Shown one piece after another: positions 45,883 to 48,486 of a stretch of DNA of 64,000 bases. Every line of letters starts with the position of its first letter. Position 1 is the stretch's first letter. Source of the DNA: an uncultured Oscillospiraceae bacterium (GTDB taxonomy: Bacteria > Bacillota > Clostridia > Oscillospirales > Oscillospiraceae); NCBI GenBank assembly GCA_947626265.1, contig CANQRM010000017.1, positions 1 to 64,000 of the forward strand, given 5' to 3'. The notes beneath the pieces are model-generated. The model was given only the letters and a program-made list of their open reading frames with translations. It was not told the DNA's origin and did no database searches. Made by a program: the position numbers and the translations under genes.

Positions 45883-46986
45883 CTACACGCATATCCAGCA
45901 TACTTCCTCCGCCTCGGTGAGAAGGGGCGGGGAAAAGCTTCGCAGCATATGGGCCACGGCGCTCTCCGGCACGCTGTCGTCCCGGGACAGGTTCCGGCGG
46001 CGGCGCTCCTCCCAGCCGGTCTCCAGGTACTCTATCCGCACCGCCGCGCCGTAACGGTGGAAGAGGTCCGTCCACCGGCCCCGGTTTGCCGGGGACAGGT
46101 TGGTGGCGTTGAAGACAAAGGGCCGCTTTTCCCGCAGCAGCGCCCGGGCCTGCTCCCGGGCCGCCCGGACCACCGCGCCGCCCCCGTCGTCTGGGGCCGC
46201 GCCCAGCTCTTTGCGCACCGCGTCCAGGGACACCATGGGCAGTCCGCCGTACCGGGCGGCGATGCAGGTGTCCTTGCCCGTGCCGGGCAGGCCGCTCACC
46301 ATGACCACCGTGCCCCAGGCGGCGGCGTAGACCCTCTGACCGGGTATCGCCGCCCGGCCAGTCATATCCGCCCAGCGGCCGGCGGCGTCGGGATAGGGAA
46401 ACGGCCCCCGCAGGCAGCCTGCCTCCTCCGCAAGGGCCCGGAAGAGGGCTATGTCCTCCAGCCGGGCCGCCCGGTCGGGACAGATACGGCCCCGGATATC
46501 CGCCTCGGCCAGCACCGCCAGCTTCTCCAGCGTGAAGGCCGCCGTCAGCTCCCCCGCGGACGCCATCTGCCGCAGGGCCCGGGCCGGGTCGTCCCGCTCG
46601 AAGATGTGCATGGGCCGCATGTGCCACCGGACCAGCAGGCACACCGCCTCCCGCAGGCGCATTTTCTCCGGCGTGCCGCCGAGGCCCAGCCCGGTCATCA
46701 GCTTCTCCCGGGCCATCTTCGCGCCCGCGGCGCTGTGGCCGGGAGCGGTCCAGCGCCCCTCCTCCAGTTGGGTGCACCGGGCCTTGCCCAGGTCGTGGAG
46801 GGCCGCCGCGGCCAGGAGCATCTGCCTGTCGTCTTCGCTCAGGGCCAGGAACGAGGGCTGCTCCGCCATGCGCTCCAGCACCAGGCGGGTGTGGGTCAGC
46901 GCGTCCCCCTCTCCGTGCCAGACCGGGTCCTGCTGCACGCCGGCAAGGTCCGCCAGGGCAGGCTCCAGCGCCTCAAGGGGTATCAT
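45883..46986 (-). CDS. HD-Pnk-like RNA end-healing enzyme (HD phosphoesterase plus polynucleotide kinase)
   Basis: 367 residues from ATG 46986 (GGCGGTGA 5 bases upstream); a TTG at 47001 is an alternative. About 1-190 is an HD domain: LTHTRLVLERM, AAALHDLGKARC (HD at 64-65), APGHSAAGA. About 225-367 is a P-loop kinase: MVSGLPGTGKDTCI (Walker A), SLDAVRKELG, FVFNATNLSPANRGRW (the D/N-ATN type block of polynucleotide kinases), and an Arg-rich lid EERRRRNLSRDD. This order matches the HD-Pnk enzyme described from Runella slithyformis, which removes 2',3'-cyclic phosphate and phosphorylates 5'-OH ends. It overlaps the RNA ligase gene by 14 bases, so the pair would heal and seal broken RNA. Confidence 0.82.
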   Translation of the reverse strand: MIPLEALEPALADLAGVQQDPVWHGEGDALTHTRLVLERMAEQPSFLALSEDDRQMLLAAAALHDLGKARCTQLEEGRWTAPGHSAAGAKMAREKLMTGLGLGGTPEKMRLREAVCLLVRWHMRPMHIFERDDPARALRQMASAGELTAAFTLEKLAVLAEADIRGRICPDRAARLEDIALFRALAEEAGCLRGPFPYPDAAGRWADMTGRAAIPGQRVYAAAWGTVVMVSGLPGTGKDTCIAARYGGLPMVSLDAVRKELGAAPDDGGGAVVRAAREQARALLREKRPFVFNATNLSPANRGRWTDLFHRYGAAVRIEYLETGWEERRRRNLSRDDSVPESAVAHMLRSFSPPLLTEAEEVCWICV

Positions 46987-47782
46987 AAATTTCACCGCCA
47001 AAGAGGGTCTCCACCGGCACGGCCAGACCGTTTGGCACGATGGGCCGGCTCTGCCAGTGGGATTCGGACAGCTGCACCGCCTGATAGAAGGTGGGCCGGA
47101 CGAATTTCATCCTGTCCGCGACCCGGCCGCCCTCCTCCGCTTTGATATAGAGCCCCTCCATCAGGGGCAGGGGGTCCGTTTCCCGGACCTGCCGTTCCCC
47201 GTCCAGGCCCAGCTTGCGGCTTGCCCGGCGCAGCCCATCCAGGTGGCCCTCGCCGCTGATGTAGTTTGACGGGCCCAGCAGGGCCGTGAGCTCTTCCCTG
47301 TCCGTGAACACGCCCTCCGCCAGCACCGGCACGGACACCACCGGCAAATCCGCCAGCATGGCATGGCGTGCGGGGGTATCCAGAAACACGCCGGTCTCCC
47401 GGTCCAGAATGTCGAATTCCAGAAAGTAGTGGGGCAGCCGGTCGTAGTACACCGTGTGCTTGGCGTACAGCCACTCGCCGTACATCACATACCGGGACCC
47501 CAGTACGGCATACAGCCGGTCCCGATGGACCCCCGCCCACTGCTTGAAGAGGTTATAATGCCGCTCCCGCCAGCCGCCGGTGAGGTAGTGGCCCCGGCTC
47601 TGCAGCAGCAGCCCGCCGTCCTCATCAAAGGACAGGGCGGAGTTGGCCCCGTCGCACTTCTCCTCCACCACCAGATGCCGCCCGGCGATGGCCTCGAAGG
47701 GTATCTGGCTCAGGTCCTCGTCCCCGGGCTGGAGCCGGGAGCCCTCCAGGTGGGGCGTGCGGGGGTATTTGATAAGGTCCAT
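46973..47782 (-). CDS. ATP-dependent RNA ligase
   Basis: 269 residues from ATG 47782 (GGGGAGG upstream). The nucleotidyltransferase motifs are visible in order: motif I EEKCDGAN (Lys42 accepts AMP), motif III MYGEWLYAKHTVYYD, IIIa FLEFDILDRE, IV EGLYIKAEEGG, V DRMKFVRP. This is the RNA-ligase (Rnl) rather than the NAD-dependent DNA ligase pattern, and there is no OB-fold extension. It seals 3'-OH/5'-phosphate RNA ends. It lies between the methyltransferase (2-base gap) and the HD-Pnk-like gene (14-base overlap), which makes an RNA-repair cassette. Confidence 0.85.
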   Translation of the reverse strand: MDLIKYPRTPHLEGSRLQPGDEDLSQIPFEAIAGRHLVVEEKCDGANSALSFDEDGGLLLQSRGHYLTGGWRERHYNLFKQWAGVHRDRLYAVLGSRYVMYGEWLYAKHTVYYDRLPHYFLEFDILDRETGVFLDTPARHAMLADLPVVSVPVLAEGVFTDREELTALLGPSNYISGEGHLDGLRRASRKLGLDGERQVRETDPLPLMEGLYIKAEEGGRVADRMKFVRPTFYQAVQLSESHWQSRPIVPNGLAVPVETLFGGEIYDTP

Positions 47783-47784
47783 GG

Positions 47785-48486
47785 CTACGCCTCCCCGCCT
47801 GTGGCGGCTGTCACGATGAGATGGCCCGGCACGCCGCCGAAATGGAGCCGCCGGCACCCGGCGTTGGCAAACAGCTCCGTCAGCACCGGCTTGGTGAGCA
47901 GGTGGATGTGCTCCGGGTTATCGTCCTCCCTGCTGGGGACTGTCACGGCCACATACCGCCGGGCGATGCGCACCGCCGCCGTCACGGCGGCCTGCACGTC
48001 CGGGATGTGCTCCAGCACCTCCAGCATGGTGACCACGTCCGCGCTCTTGGCCGGCAGGGGGCAGGCGCAGATGTCCGCCCGCAAGGCCGTGAGACAGTCC
48101 ACGCCGCCCCGGCGGACGTCCTCCAGAAAATCCACCCGGTAATCCAGCAGGTCCAGGCTCGTCACCGACACGCCGGGAAAAGCGTCCAGAAAGGGAAATA
48201 AAAACACGCCCCGGCCGCTGCCCACGTCCAAAAGGCTCTCCGGCTGCACGCCCCGGAGAAAGCCCAGTATCTGCCTTACCCGGGGCATATCCTCATGCCC
48301 CCGCTTGAAGCGGTAGAGCTTCACGCCCCAGGCCCGCCCTAAATCCAGCAGGGCCGCGAGGTCCTCCTCCGTCAGCGCCGCCAGGGGCTTTTCCCCCAGG
48401 GGCATGGGCAGCGGCAGGCCCTCACGGGCGGCATGGCCCCGCACCGCCGCCGCGGCCAGGCGCTCATACATCCCGCCGCGGGTCAC
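47785..48486 (-). CDS. Class I SAM-dependent methyltransferase, possibly RNA-repair-associated
   Basis: 233 residues from GTG 48486 (GGAGGAGG 6 bases upstream). SAM-binding LLDVGSGRGVFLFPF, ADICACPLPAKSADVV, and a TMLEVLEHIPDV block. The ExxEH arrangement equals the metal-binding set of Hen1, the RNA 3'-terminal 2'-O-methyltransferase of bacterial Pnkp/Hen1 systems, but it is also common in ordinary Methyltransf_11 enzymes, so the sequence does not decide. A later His pair (NPEHIHLLTKP) is present. Translation is coupled (GTGA) to the Sel1 gene upstream, and the RNA ligase gene follows after 2 bases. Confidence 0.75.
   Translation of the reverse strand: MTRGGMYERLAAAAVRGHAAREGLPLPMPLGEKPLAALTEEDLAALLDLGRAWGVKLYRFKRGHEDMPRVRQILGFLRGVQPESLLDVGSGRGVFLFPFLDAFPGVSVTSLDLLDYRVDFLEDVRRGGVDCLTALRADICACPLPAKSADVVTMLEVLEHIPDVQAAVTAAVRIARRYVAVTVPSREDDNPEHIHLLTKPVLTELFANAGCRRLHFGGVPGHLIVTAATGGEA

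Follow-up and report, generated by a model that had tools for sequence, protein, structure and literature searches.

Pairs of an HD-Pnk protein and a ligase are already known; in Runella slithyformis, Munir and Shuman (J Bacteriol) reportedly described an HD-Pnk that has a ligase gene as its neighbour. Pnkp is a single protein with kinase, metallophosphatase and ligase domains, and to our knowledge Hen1 is the only enzyme reported to couple RNA sealing with 2'-O-methylation in bacteria. Pnkp-Hen1 occurs in ca. 250 bacterial species, always in one operon, and Capnocytophaga gingivalis has a system of three proteins (Pnkp1, Rnl and Hen1) in which Hen1 2'-O-methylates the RNA during repair, as proposed on the 3' end prior to sealing (PMC4411300). 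Here we describe a trio of adjacent genes in a stretch of 64,000 nucleotides from an uncultured Oscillospiraceae bacterium (contig CANQRM010000017.1, positions 1 to 64,000, hereafter the window), encoding a class I S-adenosylmethionine (SAM) methyltransferase (MT), an RNA ligase and an HD-Pnk-like protein. We give a probability of roughly 0.5 to the reading that the three genes would be a dedicated RNA repair operon, in which the healed 3' end is methylated by MT before sealing.

Each of the described systems resembles this locus in some respects and departs from it in others. The Runella HD-Pnk also has an HD domain followed by a P-loop kinase in one protein, beside a putative ATP-dependent polynucleotide ligase, but is not known to have a dedicated methyltransferase. 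In Pnkp-Hen1 the methyltransferase is of the Hen1 family and accompanies one Pnkp protein, whereas here there are three proteins and a non-Hen1 MT. What is shared is RNA repair with an associated methyltransferase (PMC4411300). The same source gives the Capnocytophaga system, like ours, a separate end-healing kinase protein, an RNA ligase and a SAM methyltransferase, but with a T4Pnkp-like kinase/phosphatase instead of an HD domain before the kinase, and with a Hen1 that carries an N-terminal ligase-activating domain and is encoded far from the Rnl-Pnkp1 operon, in contrast to a short, non-Hen1 MT encoded within the operon (PMC4411300). With an HD domain preceding the kinase and an MT that is not a Hen1, the locus does not belong to the Pnkp1-Rnl-Hen1 type. 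An HD-Pnk/ligase operon with a dedicated non-Hen1 methyltransferase, found across phyla, appears to be new; a search of the open literature, which left out a 2016 survey of RNA repair and the HD-Pnk paper, returned no description of the trio.

All three genes are present on the minus strand, where a previous sequence-only reading of the window had placed them, and the tight packing noted there is confirmed, with 2 bp between the MT and ligase genes and an overlap of 29 bp between those of the ligase and the HD-Pnk-like protein (Table 1). A scan of genome contigs with the ligase gave 258 relatives, the best 80 of which were analysed, the 178 more distant ones falling outside the counts. Among these 80 loci the HD-Pnk-like gene was found in 78 (not in L041 and L088), always downstream of the ligase, MT in 64 and all three genes in 63, so that the association is more than chance. 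MT was directly upstream of the ligase and on the same strand in 61 of the 64 loci that have it, with gaps of -73 to +129 bp; other sequence separates the two in L035, L058 and L091. Four of the 16 loci lacking MT (L024, L026, L037 and L048) stop at a contig edge, hence MT is present in 64 of 76 assessable loci. Other neighbour clusters were much rarer than the trio genes (17, 13 and 12 of the 80 loci), and one cluster of 73 loci was mostly composed of opposite-strand shadow frames of the trio.

Table 1. Coordinates of the trio and its domains and motifs in the window, followed by a different triplet located in other records.
Feature	Position	Strand	Basis or remarks
MT gene	48486..47785	-	233 aa, GTG start
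Ligase gene	47782..46973	-	269 aa, ATG start
HD-Pnk-like gene	47001..45883	-	372 aa, TTG start; ATG five codons later
Class I SAM methyltransferase MT, 233 aa	47785..48486	-	Pfam, alignment of 43 relatives, AF2 model, co-occurrence
MT motif E156-V-L-E159-H160 (EVLEH, residues 156-160)	48007..48021	-	Alignments
MT H193-I-H195, within family motif VPS-x-x-D-D-N-P-E-H-I-H	47902..47910	-	Alignments
ATP-grasp-type RNA ligase (PF09414), 269 aa	46973..47782	-	Pfam, alignment of 27 relatives
Ligase motif I KCDG (residues 42-45, K42)	47648..47659	-	Sequence and alignment
HD phosphoesterase domain, Pfam extent	46600..46881	-	H37, H69-D70, H89, H127 and D168 invariant (35 rows)
P-loop 5'-OH polynucleotide kinase domain	45925..46308	-	Pfam, alignment of 35 relatives
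AAA/DUF3696, HEC-03A and ligase triplet	L119:3224-5684 (Tistrella plasmid NC_017966); L127:3-2190; L130:1351-3466		

The sequence-only reading had suggested looking for the trio in other Oscillospiraceae, and it turned out to be conserved and to reach well beyond that family. By record title the trio is found in Bacillota, Bacteroidota, Planctomycetota, Lentisphaerota, Actinomycetota, Acidobacteriota and Myxococcota (L089, L123 and L125 in the last), although single placements may reflect contamination, since most of the records are metagenome bins. A related ligase (1e-40) was present in 7 of 188 genomes sampled from the phylum of a Polyangia genome, G368, which is itself one of the seven; within ca. 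1.5 kb of each ligase, the trio was found in L123 and L125, the ligase/HD-Pnk pair in L122 (the same locus as L090), L124 and L128, and neither partner in L126 and L127. Around a Bacteroidales genome (G372) the ligase was found in 4 of 247 genomes, namely G372 itself and three with ligases of a shorter type that have neither partner, and around a Paractinoplanes genome (G366) in 1 of 246, which was G366 itself. Five plasmid regions were examined out of 32 records, four of them with the pair but without MT and one with another arrangement. Given these counts, the repair system has a rare and patchy occurrence, with the pair more widely spread than the trio. A virus origin was put aside after a scan of viral contigs gave two distant matches to MT, and phages 148 matches to the ligase, every one below 60% identity; HD-Pnk was not sought in either.

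MT is a specific and dedicated, but optional, third part of this system, inherited with the ligase; we say so because it co-diverges with the ligase, is nearly absent from the searched genomes without it, and is missing from pairs that persist. Over 63 loci, the pairwise distances among ligases and those among MTs have a correlation of 0.814, as against 0.148 at most in 500 permutations; for comparison, the values are 0.753 for ligase and HD-Pnk (77 loci) and 0.732 for MT and HD-Pnk (61 loci), with the highest permuted correlations of the three gene pairs ranging from 0.14 to 0.17. Among 60 relative genomes, the ten that possess the ligase (the window's own included) all have MT, though in G032 the matched stretch contains a stop, while of the 50 without ligase a single one has an MT match. 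This match, in a genome of the same genus (G018:C36:2635-2940), is a fragment with a stop and likely a remnant of the cassette. At a threshold of 1e-25, neither MT nor ligase was found in a further 397 genomes from the same phylum, with scores taken for the best candidates of each genome (up to 7 or 6). The 16 genomes with an MT-less ligase locus contained no clear MT elsewhere, and the one weak match among them (L112, 3.5e-12) looks generic. A quick tree of 87 rows, whose deep branches are weak and in which one row (L118) is very long, shows at least 7 changes in the presence of MT if supported branches are counted and 13 by parsimony; L084 and L085, sisters on the ligase tree, differ in it. 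Loss of MT is the simpler reading of this patchy presence, since MT co-diverges with the ligase.

The heal-and-seal chemistry that had been read from the letters, i.e., HD domain, Pnk-type kinase and RNA ligase, holds as a prediction, with the catalytic motifs invariant in the aligned rows. Very probably, to judge from the protein families, the HD domain removes a cyclic or 3'-phosphate, the kinase phosphorylates the 5'-OH and the ligase seals. The HD-Pnk-like protein matches in Pfam an HD domain (PF01966, 9e-8, residues 41-134) and then AAA_33 (PF13671, 9e-22, residues 232-359), and its AlphaFold2 (AF2) model has a mean predicted local distance difference test score (pLDDT) of 94.8. This is the HD-Pnk architecture, an N-terminal HD and a C-terminal P-loop kinase, with the relevant residues invariant in the 35 relatives of alignment A2: two of those in the HD part, H37 and D168, fall just beyond the Pfam match, and in the kinase part P239, G240, G242 and K243 of the P-loop, D260-x-x-R263 and R340 are the same in all 35 rows. 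The D-x-x-R after the P-loop presumably corresponds to the substrate motif of T4 Pnk. In profile searches against PDB, the HD part matched chains labelled Poly A polymerase (5e-9), which we take to be the enzymes that add A to tRNA tails. For the kinase, the nearest matches were L-seryl-tRNA kinase (2.8e-14) and the polynucleotide kinase 1ly1 (1.5e-9), presumably that of T4, and there were also chains labelled “Metallophosphoesterase”, which we take to be the kinase domain of bacterial Pnkp. With these as the nearest solved kinases, a nucleoside kinase is unsupported, and the preference for nucleosides that the sequence-only reading had raised against its own proposal finds no sign in the sequence.

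The ligase belongs to RNA_ligase PF09414 (1.8e-32, 113 bits against a cut-off of 27). The KCDG that had been reported for it is there, and its K42 is presumably the nucleotidyl-lysine of motif I. All 27 relatives in alignment A3 share K42, D44 and G45, the YF-EFD residues Y119-F120 and E122-F123-D124, the EG-Y-K residues E209-G210, Y212 and K214, as well as R224 and K226. The ligase profile has weak matches in PDB, the best of which (0.0064) are chains labelled ATP dependent DNA ligase; together with the action of Runella HD-Pnk on DNA ends too, this would speak for repair of DNA ends in place of RNA, a reading that we consider very improbable in view of the strong match to an RNA ligase family and of a kinase nearest to tRNA and polynucleotide kinases.

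MT matches Methyltransf_11, 23, 12 and 25 in Pfam (best 3e-11) from residues 79-86 onwards, and its AF2 model (pLDDT 94.8) shows nothing but helices ahead of its first strand, which is at residue 84. Among NCBIfam models, MftM (best 4e-22), UbiG and BioC each matched all 43 relatives in the MT alignment (A1), and Hen1 (TIGR04074) matched 34 weakly (best 3.6e-7). For the MT of the window the best models were the same three, all of them below cut-off (MftM, NF041255, 70.8 bits against 200), and the Hen1 model (cut-off 340 bits) gave no match up to 0.01. MftM is a mycofactocin oligosaccharide methyltransferase that methylates the sugar of a cofactor (PMC11778925). It is the best curated model for the MT rows, but its gene context is different. 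A PDB search with the A1 profile was headed by the methyltransferase 3mgg (1.5e-9) and a UbiG-type enzyme (1.7e-8), followed by 3jwi (4.6e-8) and 3jwg (6.6e-8), both labelled “Methyltransferase type 12” and, we assume, representing the bacterial Hen1 domain, and by chains labelled Hen1 (4.1e-6). Hen1 therefore belongs to the top group without heading it, and has one of the longest matches. One might then see in MT an ordinary small-molecule methyltransferase that sits in the operon by happenstance, the best family models being mostly small-molecule enzymes and the fold generic, but MT adjoins the ligase in 61 of the 80 loci across several phyla, and its co-divergence with the ligase and near absence from ligase-less genomes make such a coincidence quite unlikely. 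The clustering with ubiquinone-type or other small-molecule enzymes that the sequence-only reading had feared is largely real as regards ancestry, but co-occurrence still ties MT to the pathway.

The proposal that MT is a relative of Hen1 had to be abandoned. It misses the Hen1 model, the N-terminal ligase-activating domain of Hen1 is not seen in its 233 residues (by Pfam, the AF2 model or the Hen1 model), and Hen1 is no closer to it than other methyltransferases are. The A1 profile scored five true Hen1s at 21.6, 20.2, 13.3, 5.1 and 2.4 bits, and four of 14 control loci outscored them all (L105, 48.7; L112, 48.3; L103, 32.7; L110, 25.6 bits), while ten did not exceed the best Hen1; these controls are not random, 13 of them being weak Hen1 matches and L112 the best stray match to A1. 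With hhalign, the best single Hen1 gave 1.2e-8 and a clean five-row Hen1 profile 3.2e-9, and five of the 14 controls surpassed that single Hen1, two with much stronger values (2e-16 and 3e-15). The fold is uninformative, as structure comparison ties Hen1 with dozens of other class I methyltransferases. From the model, profile and hhalign comparisons we conclude that MT is not a Hen1.

Yet MT has a residue pattern reminiscent of Hen1. Invariant across the 43 relatives are G89-S-G-R-G93, E156, E159, H160, V183-P-S, D188, N190, H193 and H222, and the polar residues remain so when recounted on 63 rows, where H195 is found in 61. The ExxEH that had been pointed out in MT is present as EVLEH and is possibly a metal site, by analogy with Hen1. 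The metal quartet of Hen1 is ExxEH plus a downstream His, and hhalign puts H193 and H195 within 1-2 residues of the His in the Hen1 HxDHRFEWT motif. However, the generic methyltransferases L105 and L112 show the same combination of ExxEH and downstream His, so this type of motif is not diagnostic, and the pattern is only suggestive of a Hen1-like function.

By analogy, then, MT may work as Hen1 does and methylate the 3' end once it is healed and before it is sealed, and we would put this at even odds. The alternative is that the pair heals and seals the RNA and MT acts elsewhere, for example on a base near the break (in the anticodon loop), a 5'-phosphate or a regulatory target, and not on the 3'-terminal 2'-OH. 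An MT that is tied to the pathway and yet not a Hen1 by sequence would be consistent with it, as would the match of the A1 profile to the tRNA m3C methyltransferase METTL6 in PDB (8e-5) and the existence of ligase/HD-Pnk pairs without MT. However, no base methyltransferase model attains the level of MftM, UbiG and BioC (43 of 43 rows), the rRNA enzyme model RsmG reaching 26 of 43 (best 6.5e-7), and the invariant E156, E159, H160, H193 and H222 would fit an O-methyltransferase that is assisted by a metal or uses a general base. We regard such another target as rather unlikely.

If the three genes do form a methylating repair operon, the substrate would be a broken RNA, possibly a tRNA or rRNA that a metal-independent ribonuclease has cut. 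The HD domain would remove the 2',3'-cyclic phosphate or 3'-phosphate and the P-loop kinase would phosphorylate the 5'-OH ends; MT would methylate the healed 3' end at its terminal 2'-OH, or else a different site beside the break, and the ligase would adenylylate and seal the 3'-OH/5'-PO4 ends, leaving a methylated junction that would resist a second cut by the same nuclease. That the RNA is cut by a ribotoxin and that the methyl group protects the repaired end is what we infer, as the sequence-only reading did. Somewhat short of an even chance, in our estimation, is the broader proposal that here a “repair with immunity” system was assembled independently for a third time, from HD-Pnk, a ligase of Rnl type and a non-Hen1 MT drawn from generic sugar or small-molecule methyltransferases; the MT would 2'-O-methylate the healed 3' end and so render the sealed RNA resistant to the same ribotoxin. 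Were it true, the marking of repaired junctions would have evolved more than once, with a methyltransferase of another family and a different healing enzyme. The compact set of three genes from gut bacteria could be reconstituted in standard nicked-tRNA assays, and natural systems with and without MT, such as the sisters L084 and L085, could reveal the benefit of the methyl group.

As to the surroundings, a Sel1-repeat protein gene (48483-49610) lies upstream of MT with an overlap of 4 bp, and next upstream is an ADP-ribosylglycohydrolase gene (49603-50721) that overlaps the former by 8 bp. On the other side, a 248-residue protein (45093-45839) without Pfam, NCBIfam or PADLOC match adjoins the HD-Pnk-like gene downstream; among the 80 loci only L012 and L016 have it. 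A promoter scan found none (1.1 expected) and a terminator scan 10 (4.6 expected), and no non-coding RNA partner of the trio was found within the window. The ADP-ribosylglycohydrolase family occurs near the trio in 12 of the 80 loci, six of them from L022 on, i.e., beyond the close relatives of the window. In the window itself, a weak VWA-like match (55727-56581) and a Macro domain protein (56457-57488) also lie within ca. 11 kb of the trio. Between MT and ligase at L091:7442-12136 there is a fusion of cytidylyltransferase-like and NADAR parts, along with a weakly VWA-like protein, a possible link of NAD or ADP-ribose to RNA repair. Elsewhere in the window, the strand of the trio also encodes a protein whose HSP70-like domain is divergent (41771-43723) and a protein kinase with leucine-rich repeats (53322-55499), and a further gene (57942-63230) encodes a protein of 1762 residues in which Sel1 repeats are matched 36 times.

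A link to defence islands was pursued and found weak. The neighbour set (A4), a collection of unrelated proteins and not a true alignment, held 121 members, that is, 171 called (with 14 near-copy or similar loci excluded) minus 50 removed by hand (near-copies, long frames, poor loci), and these matched seven PADLOC families with at most two members each. Matches to 83 Pfam families were also found, the commonest in four members, with RtcB and a DarT1-associated NADAR in one each; a motif search aimed at these two members located neither. A different triplet was seen in three records (Table 1), composed of an AAA ATPase carrying DUF3696, a small protein that matches HEC-03A of PADLOC and a short RNA_ligase-type ligase; the match to HEC-03B comes from L119 only. 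The candidate defence pair HEC-03 may be partnered by an RNA ligase, a hint of an effector that cuts RNA and has a repair enzyme of its own.

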